Assembly: GCF_900167415.1 (NCBI RefSeq)
Contig: NZ_FUWU01000004.1
Span: forward strand, 1 to 64,000
Source of the DNA: Fibrobacter intestinalis
GTDB taxonomy: Bacteria; Fibrobacterota; Fibrobacteria; Fibrobacterales; Fibrobacteraceae
Direction: 5' to 3'
DNA length: 64,000 nt
Part shown: positions 12,002-48,015 of the stretch, piece by piece
How positions within the stretch are numbered: position 1 is the first letter of the stretch
Layout: each line of letters begins with the position of its first letter
Position numbers and translations under genes: made by a program
The notes under the pieces: model-generated
Told to the model about the DNA's origin: nothing
Seen by the model: the letters and a program-made list of their open reading frames with translations, nothing else
Database searches by the model: none

Positions 12002-13333
12002 ATGCCGCAGAATCTGGCACACGGAAGCATTTTTAAGAACATCGCCATTTTTTCGCTTCCCTATCTTTTGGCCTACTTTTTACAGACCCTTTATGGGCTT
12101 GCCGACTTATTCATCATCGGGCAATTTGAAAGTGCAGAGGCGATTACAGCTGTTGCGGTCGGAAGTCAGGTAATGCACTTTTTAACGGTGATTATTGTGG
12201 GTTTCGCCATGGGGACGACGGTTCTTATCGGCAGAGCTTTTGGAGCAAAAAATTTTTTGAGCATCTCTCGAATCGCCGGAAACAGCATCCTCCTTTTGGG
12301 AACGGCTTCTATACTTTTAACAGCGAGCCTTTTATTTTTCTGTTCGCCAATCGTTTCCCTGTTAAAAACTCCGCCCGAAGCCATCGATAATACCACGCGC
12401 TATTTGCGCATTTGCTTCGCCGGTATTCCGGGCATTATCGCATACAATTTCATGGCGGCCATTTTCCGCGGCATGGGAGAATCCAAACGCCCGATGTACT
12501 TTATTGCGTTCGCTTGCCTATTAAATATCGCGCTCGATTACATCTTTATCGGAGGATTTCACTGGAGCGCCGCAGGAGCAGCGGCAGCGACCATTCTCGC
12601 TCAAACGGCAAGTTTCTTGATGGCTCTTAAATCCGTTCGCAAATCTGTCGGTTTTTCGCTTTCTTTAAAAGATTTTCGCCCGCACAAAACCATTCTTCGC
12701 GGCATCTGTAGCGTTGGATTTCCCATTGCCATCCAAGACGGATTCATCCAGGTTTCGTTTCTTTTCATCACGATGATCGCCAATAGTCGCGGAATGGAAA
12801 TCGCTGCAGCGGTCGGCATTGTTGAAAAAATCATTTCGTTCCTATTCCTCGTTCCGTCGGCAATGCTTTCCACCATTTCGGCCATCGCTTCTCAAAGTTT
12901 CGGCGCAAAAGATTTTCAACGCGCCCAAAAAACACTTTGGACGGGAATGGGCATCACAGCAAGCGTCGCTTTTATTTTTGCCATCGCCTTTCAATTCATT
13001 TCGGAAAATGCCGTCGCCCTTTTTACGGAAGACCCGGCCATTGTACGATTCGGAACGGAGTATCTGCGAATGTACGTTTTTGACTGCATTTTTGCGTCCG
13101 TCCATTTTTGTTTTAGCGGCTATTTTTGCGCCCGCGGACTTTCCATCATTTCGTTTGTCCACAATGCATTTTCCATTGCGCTCGTCCGCATTCCGGGAAC
13201 GGCTCTCGCCGCTAAATTCTTTCCCGATACGCTGCTCCCCATGGGAATGGCCGCGCCAGCGGGGTCGCTTTTTTCTGTCGTCTTTTGCCTTGTGTTTTAC
13301 CGCATTTACAGGCAAAATTTCGCCCAGCCGTAA
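12002..13333 (+). CDS. MATE family efflux transporter
   Basis: This is a cation-coupled multidrug/toxin exporter of the MATE (NorM/DinF) superfamily in the inner membrane. The start is taken as ATG 12002 (MPQNLAHGSIFKN; 443 aa). About 12 hydrophobic helices are visible. The family-typical segments are LLAYFLQTLYGLADLFIIGQ near the N-terminus and FRGMGESKRPMYF about 155 residues in. It is divergent from rplM. The substrate cannot be told from sequence. Confidence 0.92.
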   Translation: MPQNLAHGSIFKNIAIFSLPYLLAYFLQTLYGLADLFIIGQFESAEAITAVAVGSQVMHFLTVIIVGFAMGTTVLIGRAFGAKNFLSISRIAGNSILLLGTASILLTASLLFFCSPIVSLLKTPPEAIDNTTRYLRICFAGIPGIIAYNFMAAIFRGMGESKRPMYFIAFACLLNIALDYIFIGGFHWSAAGAAAATILAQTASFLMALKSVRKSVGFSLSLKDFRPHKTILRGICSVGFPIAIQDGFIQVSFLFITMIANSRGMEIAAAVGIVEKIISFLFLVPSAMLSTISAIASQSFGAKDFQRAQKTLWTGMGITASVAFIFAIAFQFISENAVALFTEDPAIVRFGTEYLRMYVFDCIFASVHFCFSGYFCARGLSIISFVHNAFSIALVRIPGTALAAKFFPDTLLPMGMAAPAGSLFSVVFCLVFYRIYRQNFAQP

Positions 13334-13426
13334 CAAGCTTTTTTCACCGGCGAATCACTAGAAACGAGCACAAAAGCGGAGAAAGCCTTCTGCAATCCAA
13401 CGCTTTGACAATTTCTCTGTTACAAA

Positions 13427-13446
13427 TTTTGGGTCCCCACCCAAAA
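13427..13446. terminator. Hairpin between MATE and the restriction operon
   Basis: A perfect 8-bp stem TTTTGGGT/ACCCAAAA has a CCCC loop. It lies between two convergent genes (MATE, plus; nuclease, minus), so it could end either transcript. The T tract is poor on both strands. Confidence 0.35.
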
Positions 13447-13606
13447 GGATTTACCTGTAGAAGGTATCCGATTTTCTCTTTTTAAGAGAGGTGCTTTTTA
13501 TTACCATCACGTAGCAGCGAAATTGCACTCGCTATAGCGATAGACTGCTGAATCATTCTGTATTAAACTTCAAAGAAAACAGCAGGGTAGGTGGACAAGA
13601 GCAGAT

Positions 13607-44179: not shown

Positions 44180-44797
44180 ATGATGGAAACGATCAAGAAA
44201 AACAAAAAGGTCAGCATCAGCTACTACCTAAAAGACGAAAACGGCGCCATTATCGAAGAAGTACCCGAAAATTTTCCTTTTGTTTATATGCACGGTTGCG
44301 ACAGCGTTATCGAAGGACTTGAAGAAGCGCTGGACGGACATTCCGTCGGCGACCACATCATTGCCCACGTCCCCTACACCAAGGGTTATGGCGCTTACCG
44401 CAAAGAACTGATCATCAAAGTCCCCAAAGAAGAACTCAAAAACATCGGAGAACTCTGGCTGGGCATGGAATTGGAAATGGTCCGCGACACCGACTCCACC
44501 GAATTTTCCATTCCCGAGGATCCCCGCGAAATTTACAACAAAAACGACAACTTCGACGAACCGGATATTTTTGTCATACGAGAGATTCAAAAAAATACAG
44601 TCACCCTCGATGGCAACCATCCCTTTGCAGGAAAAGATTTGACATTTGAAGTGGACATCATTGACATTGCCGAACCGTCCATCACCGAACTGGAAACGGG
44701 CATTCCCGACGAATACGAAGAAGATGATGACGATTTCGACAGCGACGAGGATTTTCCAGAAGACGAACAAAACAACTTTGGGAGGCATTGGCGCTAA
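44180..44797 (+). CDS. slyD: FKBP-type peptidyl-prolyl isomerase (SlyD-like)
   Basis: This 205-aa protein has the FKBP fold split by an insert-in-flap domain, as in SlyD: VSISYYLKDENGAIIEE, GCDSVIEGLEEALDGHSVGD, then the flap and NHPFAGKDLTFEV. The conserved NHPLAG motif has Phe for Leu. Instead of the His-rich metal-binding tail of E. coli SlyD it ends in a very acidic stretch of about 25 residues (EEDDDDFDSDEDFPED). It is a prolyl isomerase and chaperone. It overlaps rpiA by one base (TAATG). Confidence 0.87.
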   Translation: MMETIKKNKKVSISYYLKDENGAIIEEVPENFPFVYMHGCDSVIEGLEEALDGHSVGDHIIAHVPYTKGYGAYRKELIIKVPKEELKNIGELWLGMELEMVRDTDSTEFSIPEDPREIYNKNDNFDEPDIFVIREIQKNTVTLDGNHPFAGKDLTFEVDIIDIAEPSITELETGIPDEYEEDDDDFDSDEDFPEDEQNNFGRHWR

Positions 44798-45483
44798 TGG
44801 CGGACCTGAACGAACTCAAAAAAAACGCGGGAATTCTTGCGGCAAACAAAATTGAATCCGGCATGACCGTCGGACTTGGAACCGGCAGCACCGCAGCCTA
44901 CATGGTCGCCCGATTGGGAGAGCGCATCCAGACGGAAGGATTAAAAATCCAGGCTGTCAGCACCAGTTGGAGTACAACCATTCAATGTCGCCAGTTGGGC
45001 ATTCCCCTTATGGATTTGGGAGACGCGGAACATCTGGACATCGCTATCGACGGTGCCGACGAAATCGACCCTCAAAAGAATTTGATTAAAGGCCGTGGAG
45101 CGGCGCATCTACTTGAAAAAATCGTCGCTTCCATGGCGGACAATTATATCATCATCGCCGACGATGGGAAAAAAGTCAAGCAACTGGGCGAAAAATTTGC
45201 CGTTCCTCTGGAAATTCTGCCCAACGCCATCGCTTCCGTTACATACAAAGTCCACAAATTAGGAGCCGATCTCCAGATTCGGATGGGAGCCCCCGGCAAA
45301 GACGGGCCCGTCATCAGCGATTCGGGCAATCTCATCGCCGACGCCAGATTCGGAACCATCAACGACCCGGAAAAACTCGACTCGGAATTAAACAAAATAC
45401 CCGGGCTGCTTGGCCACGGGCTGTTTATCGGCATGGCGAACAAAGTTATCCTTGCTACGCCAAACGGTATTGAAGAATTTTAG
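44797..45483 (+). CDS. rpiA: Ribose-5-phosphate isomerase A
   Basis: RpiA interconverts ribose 5-phosphate and ribulose 5-phosphate in the pentose phosphate pathway. I start at MADLNELKKNAG (228 aa), with a GGAGG 11 nt upstream inside slyD. A TTG nine bases earlier is less likely. Signature blocks are GLGTGSTAAYM, DIAIDGADEIDPQKNLIKGRGAAHLLEK and the HGLFIGMA end. Confidence 0.96.
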   Translation: MADLNELKKNAGILAANKIESGMTVGLGTGSTAAYMVARLGERIQTEGLKIQAVSTSWSTTIQCRQLGIPLMDLGDAEHLDIAIDGADEIDPQKNLIKGRGAAHLLEKIVASMADNYIIIADDGKKVKQLGEKFAVPLEILPNAIASVTYKVHKLGADLQIRMGAPGKDGPVISDSGNLIADARFGTINDPEKLDSELNKIPGLLGHGLFIGMANKVILATPNGIEEF

Positions 45484-45551
45484 TATGCAGATTTTAACTT
45501 TACATCAATTGCATTGGCGATGAAAACTCGCGCCATAATTAGGAGAATACA

Positions 45552-47293
45552 ATGATCAAAAAGATCTATTTGATTCTAAGTCTTATCGGAGCGACAATGT
45601 CATACGCATTGTCTCCAGCAGCCGCAGAGAAGAAATGTTTTGCAACAGGAGCTGTCAATTTTGCTCAAAAAACGAAAGACAAAGTTGTTTTATACGGCAA
45701 TGCAAAAAATCCCAAAATTGCTTTTGTGAAATATAAGGTCAAAAATAATCCGGGCATAAAAATTGCGGGGGGGGATATCCTGACGATTCTTTTTATCTGA
45801 TCGACCTGCCCAAAGAACTTTTAGACCTATTTTCTATACGTTCTTGGAACGATTTCCTTTGCGGAGACTTTTTTCCATTTGCATTTCCCAACGTAAACGA
45901 TCTAACTTCAATAGAAACAAAAGACGGAATTACATCCGTTACGTACAATGAAAAATTTTATGCGTTCACGGCAATACCCGACGATGCATTCATAGTTCAA
46001 ACCGCCATCGATTCTTTTTCTATTTCTATTCCTGGAAATCTCAATTACAACAACGAGTATCCGATCAGCAAAATTTATCCCAACAGCTATGTTGATAGCT
46101 TTGAACTTTCTCTTGTTCAAAACAATGAAGTGTTAACGGGTTGGATTGACGCAATTCTTCAATTGTCCAAAATAAAAGATTTTGAAAAAAGGAGAGAAAT
46201 TTTAAATGAACTCAAATCACAAGACTTAGCTTCTTTAATCGACGACGTTGAAGAATTTAACAAGGCTTTAGAAGAATTCGATTATTCTAAAGAGACTTCA
46301 CAAAACAACGACATTTATAAAACCATCCACGAATACTTGGAAACGATGGATGAAAAATTCAGTCATACCAAAGCATTCATGACTCCAACTTCACAAACAT
46401 TCGCAGAAGCGATACACATTCTTTATCGAGATTTTGAAAAAGAAACAAGACTCTATTTGAAAAAACTCAAGACAACCAAAAATAAAAAAACCGAAGAGAA
46501 TTTGGCGGAATATTCAAAGCAAACATTAGAAAAAGCAATTCTAACGATCCAAAGAGGAATTGACCAGTTAGGACAATCCCCAAACCGTTCCGATCGACAA
46601 ATCGGCTTTTTACTAAACGATTATGAAACGAAATTCAGCGAATATCTTGAGAAGATCAATTCAGGAAACCACGGTCCCTTAAAACTCATCAATACAGCTT
46701 TAGCTAAAATCCTAGCAACAGAATCTTACGTACTAGACCTCAGCGGAACAGGAATTACGTTCAAAAGAAATAAAATTGCAAAAGAGAACGGAAATGAACA
46801 AATTGATCTCGACGATTTAACTTCGATAATTTTATACGGAGGTATTAATCTTAAAGATGGAAAAGATTACAGTCTTTTAGTCAGGGCACAAACTGAATAC
46901 GCAGAAAGACTTAACAGAATAATTTTCGATAAAGATTCAAAAGTACTTCTATGGAGTTTGGTCGGTACAGGATATTTCCGCAGCAATTACCTGCCTCCTA
47001 TCCAAGTCATCTACAGCGGAGATGCAAATCAATTCCATCTTTTTGGCGAAAATTCCGACTTGCTTAATGAAACTCAGTTTCCGGCTTCTAAACAATTATC
47101 ATCCTCCGAGGGACTTATTCTCCGAGAAAAGCTCAAGTGCGTTTTTCAAGCTCTAAATGGAGATATGGCTCAATTTAAAAAACTCGCCGCAGCACGGAAA
47201 TCATCTATAGGGTCAGGAACTCTTATAGAAAAGAATAAATCATTTGAATCTCTTTCTTGCTCCGATGGGAAAATCACTAATCCTCAGCAATGA
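45552..47293 (+). pseudogene. Secreted protein frameshifted at a G8 tract (possible phase-variable gene)
   Basis: A good ribosome site (AGGAG) and a signal peptide (MIKKIYLILSLIGATMSYA, cleavage near ALS-PAAA) begin a frame that hits eight G at 45767-45774 and stops at 45800. From 45782 another frame is open without a stop or a normal start codon up to 47293. One extra G would join them into a single protein of about 580 aa. The mature part is unrecognised: an N-terminal beta-rich region, a Lys/Glu-rich helical middle (about 200-400) and a C-terminal region ending in a Cys/Ser-rich stretch. As written it is off. Whether this is phase variation, decay or a sequencing error cannot be decided here. 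Confidence 0.75.
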
Positions 47294-47544
47294 ACCAGAA
47301 AGCAACTCAATTTTCAGAAATAAACAATCGTATGCCAAAGATAAACGTCCGATTTCTGATCCTTCAAATTGTAGGAAACGCATAAAACCCACGCATTTTT
47401 TCTGCCGAATGTTTGTCTGAAACAAATTCACAAGAAATCGTCTGCCTCAAAATTCCGAGATCAGACTAATTTCATCTATGAACCTTTAAACGGCAAAGCA
47501 ATCGACAGATGCTGCTGGTTGCTCCATTCAAAACAAAAATTTAA

Positions 47545-48015
47545 TCAGGCAAGTGCTTCTTTGACGAGTTCGCTCAAACGGCGACCGTCAAAACGGCCTT
47601 TCGCCTTGGGAGAAAGCTCCTTCATCACCTTGCCCATATCTTTAGGACCTTGCGCTCCGACCTGCGCTTTAATTTCTGCAATCAAGGTTTTGACTTCTTC
47701 TTCCGTCAGCTGCTGCGGCAGATATTTCTGATAAACGGCAAGAGTCTTTTCCTCTTCCTGCGCATTTTGTTCGCGCCCGCCTTTACGGAGCATTTCAATG
47801 GATTCGTTTCTCTGTTTGATGCTCTTGGAGAGCACATCCAGAACCGTTTCATCCGTGATTTCTTTTTGCGCGTTGATCGCTACATTCTTAATGTCGGAAT
47901 GCAGAGTGCGCAAAACCTCCAAAGTCATCGTGTCGTGCGCTTTCATCGCAGCTTTGATGTCAGCGAGAATTTGCTGAAGGAGCGGACTTTCCGCTTTAAC
48001 CAACGAATCGGCCAT
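47545..48015 (-). CDS. yqeY: GatB/YqeY domain protein
   Basis: This 156-aa helical protein of the YqeY family (the tail domain of GatB) shows LEVLRTLHSDIKN, a SIKQRNESIEMLRKGGRE helix and GKVMKELSPKAKGRFDG near the end. It is commonly next to rpsU, as here, and is thought to bind tRNA. Its exact role is not known. Confidence 0.93.
   Translation of the reverse strand: MADSLVKAESPLLQQILADIKAAMKAHDTMTLEVLRTLHSDIKNVAINAQKEITDETVLDVLSKSIKQRNESIEMLRKGGREQNAQEEEKTLAVYQKYLPQQLTEEEVKTLIAEIKAQVGAQGPKDMGKVMKELSPKAKGRFDGRRLSELVKEALA

Follow-up and report, generated by a model that had tools for sequence, protein, structure and literature searches.

A candidate phase-variable gene, split at a poly-G tract, in a mobile accessory block of a Fibrobacter-family bacterium

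Introduction

Most work on phase variation at homopolymer tracts has concerned pathogens (PMC3711429). G/C tracts of the size considered here drive phase variation in Campylobacter, where tracts of eight G residues are biased towards insertions and where C. jejuni is without functional mismatch repair (PMC8355987). The Neisseria genes lgtA and lgtC, which act in lipooligosaccharide synthesis, also undergo poly-G phase variation (PMC3526765). No paper on homopolymer phase variation in Fibrobacter was found in the open-access literature searched.

In this study, we describe a gene that is interrupted at a run of eight G residues in a 64-kb stretch of DNA (the window) from a Fibrobacter-family genome (G000). 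The locus is of a kind already known, a homopolymer-tract gene, here in a mobile accessory block. As in the Campylobacter G-tract genes, the tracts concerned (G8-14) lie within the open reading frame near its 5' end, expression would be ON or OFF according to frame, and several envelope or secreted genes of one genome are affected. Unlike the situation in Campylobacter, MutS is present, far fewer genes are split by tracts and the host is a Fibrobacter-family bacterium; the locus is described from its sequence, from which we infer switching. In a comparison with lgtA and lgtC that uses the genome sequence alone, a second split gene of G000, encoding an EptC-like protein, is likewise envelope-modifying and contains an intragenic G14, whereas the window gene encodes a predicted exported protein of no known family. 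If phase variation is the correct reading, the envelope and exported proteins of a gut lineage related to the fibre-degrading Fibrobacter are subject to variation that may be directed against phage or host, and three loci can be named (the window gene and genes on contigs C28 and C60). If the gene is instead decaying, it shows clearly how a gene acquired by transfer can break at its homopolymer before anywhere else.

Results and discussion

Two reading frames meet at a G8 tract

The 5' frame (45552..45800, plus strand) starts at an ATG at 45552 that is closely preceded by AGGAG, encodes a signal peptide and the first ~70 residues, runs out of frame past the tract and ends at the stop codon 45798-45800. 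The 3' frame (45776..47293, plus strand) encodes the body of the protein, with 505 open codons past the tract and a TGA at 47291-47293; its nearest upstream stop lies seven codons before the tract. Both frames are open together over only ~55 nt, and this zone contains the G8 tract (45767..45774, plus strand). Shuffled sequences predict 1.73 such tracts in the window and one is observed, so that the occurrence of a G8 per se is unremarkable. What stands out is its placement: the sole G8 in 64 kb lies inside the 55-nt zone in which both frames are open.

A search of 111 genomes of the family returned an intact homologue from another genus (G114; L156:1285-3000), a protein of 571 amino acids with a signal peptide. 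Its residues 1-70 align with the 5' frame (46% identity over 70 amino acids) and residues 73-564 with the 3' frame (38% identity over 504 amino acids), leaving two residues between the aligned parts. The two proteins are homologous over their full length and share the same signal-peptide layout, whereas the G114 gene is intact, has no G run in the DNA at the junction and occupies a different genomic site. The alignment narrows the frame change to ~45762-45775, about 14 nt, of which the tract makes up eight. The initial annotation had proposed that a signal-peptide frame and a long open frame meet at the G8, and this is borne out both by the coordinates and by the homologue; because the latter spans the junction, it is a stronger argument than the frames themselves that they encode one protein. 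The two frames are thus parts of one secreted-protein gene split at a homopolymer. As the intact G114 homologue is without the tract, the tract is not a conserved feature of the family.

The split-gene protein had no significant match in Pfam, NCBIfam, PHROGs or the PDB, and searches of genome contigs, viral contigs (two queries) and plasmids returned no more distant homologues. A single-sequence structure model of the 505-residue frame alone reached a pLDDT of 37 and was unusable. The Sec signal peptide suggests that the product is exported, and it may be exposed at the surface. In G114, the homologous gene adjoins a partial duplicate of the 3' end of a gene that we take to be carB-like, with a longer copy downstream (L157:7637-8608, 12178-13497); the arrangement suggests a site at which accessory genes insert.

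An accessory block shared with a sister species

Upstream of the split gene lies rpiA (44788..45483, plus strand; Pfam PF06026, E = 4e-60) and downstream, in convergent orientation, a gene that is presumably of the yqeY type (47545..48015, minus strand). In L038, L039 and L040, which were taken as belonging to the same genus and in which the flanking genes are 86-88% identical to those of the window, the stop codons of these two genes abut with nothing between them. In G001, which belongs to the same genus but to another species, the gene is present on two contigs. Windowed alignment delimits a common block (45448..47568) of ~99.7% identity, with six substitutions, a change in the tract and an insertion element in G001, while outside the block the identity to the window is only 71-91%. 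Because the block is near-identical in G001 between divergent flanks and absent from three same-genus genomes, it is a mobile accessory insertion, an insert of ~2.06 kb between two convergent housekeeping genes that was exchanged recently between species. The exchange probably proceeded by recombination in the flanks, and no terminal repeats were found around the block. The GC content is 36% in the gene, 46% in the window and ~50% in the flanking genes. The accessory gene, acquired by horizontal exchange, would encode a protein of ~575 amino acids that is predicted to be exported.

Comparison of the tract length gives G10 in G001 and G8 in G000. This is the only small indel in ~2.1 kb of a young block, which makes the tract its fastest-changing site and a genuine hot spot for changes in length; since the two copies are otherwise nearly identical, the difference also argues against an artefact of a single assembly. 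G8 and G10 represent the two different out-of-frame classes, so that both tract-bearing copies found are OFF, two being too few to argue that ON variants do not exist. The earlier description of the locus as a slipped-strand contingency locus in a surface-protein gene is sustained as far as the variation in tract length is concerned, while the product is taken here as predicted to be exported rather than as a surface protein.

The G001 copy is damaged in two further ways. One of the six substitutions (at 45553) removes the start codon, and the TA at 46134..46135 carries an insertion element that is not in the window. Both G001 contig ends match the ends of this one element, which encodes a 348-residue transposase and is flanked by a TA duplication; the contig break is therefore the insertion itself. 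The element, which we take to be IS630-like, is present seven times in G003, a complete genome from the same genus. These lesions bear on two points of the initial annotation. Its argument that a stop-free 3' frame makes the gene probably functional loses its footing, because with six substitutions in 2.1 kb stops are not yet expected and the G001 copy is doubly damaged besides the tract. It had also named further disabling mutations in all relatives as evidence against switching, and these are present in part, in the loss of the ATG and the insertion in the only close copy.

Long G tracts elsewhere in the genome

G000 contains 38 G/C tracts of at least eight bases, 13 of at least ten and four of at least 12, the longest being G14, compared with 71, 4.8 and 0.3 (0.33) expected under a first-order model. 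Because this model predicts too many runs of 4-7, the excess in the long tail is even larger than counted. By the criterion used, a gene is split at three of the 38 tracts. Counting split frames mechanically gives 3/76 tract-strands versus 0.5% at random positions; most of the control matches resemble ordinary frames, adjacent or antisense, which makes the count no clean test, and homology was therefore preferred.

The G14 tract on contig C28 (G000:C28:11292-11305; L087:3193-3206) lies between a start region of 46 codons, which includes a membrane segment, and a 554-residue EptC-like phosphoethanolamine transferase (Pfam Sulfatase, E = 7.7e-31; EptC in the PDB, E = 6.8e-43). Start and body are a candidate N-terminal join, that is, one gene split at the G14, and no close relative of it was found in the same genus. 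On contig C60, a G8 (G000:C60:50499-50506; L100:3100-3107) stands between a signal-peptide start and a body of ~960 residues, together a secreted protein of ~1,000 residues, and both frames match consecutive parts of homologues that are intact across the junction in other genomes. All three tract-split products are thus predicted to be exported or envelope-related. No G tract of the complete genome G003 cleanly splits a gene, and the tracts of G001 and G003, read in context, mostly do not lie within long frames. MutS, which would normally slow homopolymer slippage, is present in the four genomes tested (4/4).

Phase variation and its alternatives

Phase variation is in our estimate the single most likely reading, with a probability of roughly 0.5. 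The G homopolymer near codon 72 would gain and lose Gs by slipped-strand mispairing at replication; a tract length that is a multiple of three would join the frames (ON), and any other length would lead to a translation stop within about ten codons (OFF). Length changes would be frequent and reversible within the population, and switching would be retained for a benefit to the cell, as the other envelope and secreted genes of G000 split at G tracts may indicate. The intact homologue across the junction, the G8 versus G10 difference, the excess of long tracts and the two additional split genes all favour this reading. Against it stand the OFF state of both copies, the lost ATG and the insertion in G001, the tract-free homologue, the presence of MutS, the small share of tracts that split genes and the lack of a clean case in G003. 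It is also possible, though we propose it only tentatively, that members of this Fibrobacter-related genus have a small poly-G phasome through which the exported protein of the accessory block, the EptC-like modifier of the envelope and the large secreted protein are switched, and that the switchable accessory gene is in addition passed from species to species within a 2-kb block lodged between housekeeping genes.

The foremost rival, close behind phase variation in our estimate, is that the gene is a pseudogene at an early stage. An accessory gene acquired not long ago would be on its way to being lost, its mutable homopolymer having broken first through ordinary slippage without adaptive switching. 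In favour of this, the G001 copy carries three lesions (start codon, tract and insertion) after very few substitutions, three of the four coding substitutions between the copies change the meaning of a codon, the start codon among them, and the gene is rare, being found in three of 168 genomes of the phylum. Decay accounts less readily for G000, in which the tract is the only visible lesion, long tracts are in excess and G tracts, in one case a G14, interrupt two other genes for envelope or secreted proteins. Expression despite the frameshift, with RNA polymerase or the ribosome slipping on the G run to give a low and constant level of full-length protein, is very unlikely. Transcriptional slippage can occur at homopolymers (PMC3711429), and the run, read in the upstream frame as G GGG GGG, matches the pattern of a -1 slippery heptamer, but the G10 copy would require another frame change and the RNA folding downstream is unremarkable by eye. 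A programmed -1 ribosomal frameshift was rejected as a conserved mechanism, because the required offset differs between the copies and G114 has no tract. The least probable explanation is an erroneous tract length in the assembly or the reads. G000 is a draft of 116 contigs, poly-G calling is a known problem of some sequencing instruments, and long poly-G runs are implausibly numerous in one genus of the family; yet at the same position another species, assembled independently, has a tract of a different length that is likewise out of frame, and coding sequence elsewhere in the window is intact.

Other G-tract arrangements

In genus g6 (for example G026, G028 and G064) overlapping matches to G10 number in the hundreds, some of them close to the ends of contigs, and probably represent a sequencing artefact rather than biology. 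Five composite tracts consist of nine T directly followed by 8-13 G, or the complement (L085:1041, L092:3113, L103:1889, L109:3097 and L110:3153); one lies just 5' of a ribosome-binding site and another codes for Pro-Lys repeats close to the N-terminus of a protein. These could be natural or an instrument artefact. In G001 (contig C42; L138:893-1016), a G9 and a G11 lie close together in a 257-codon frame that stops just past the second. At L096:3115 and 3288, a G8 and a G11 tract 173 bp apart are each followed by an identical 20-nt sequence, which suggests duplication of a segment carrying the tract.
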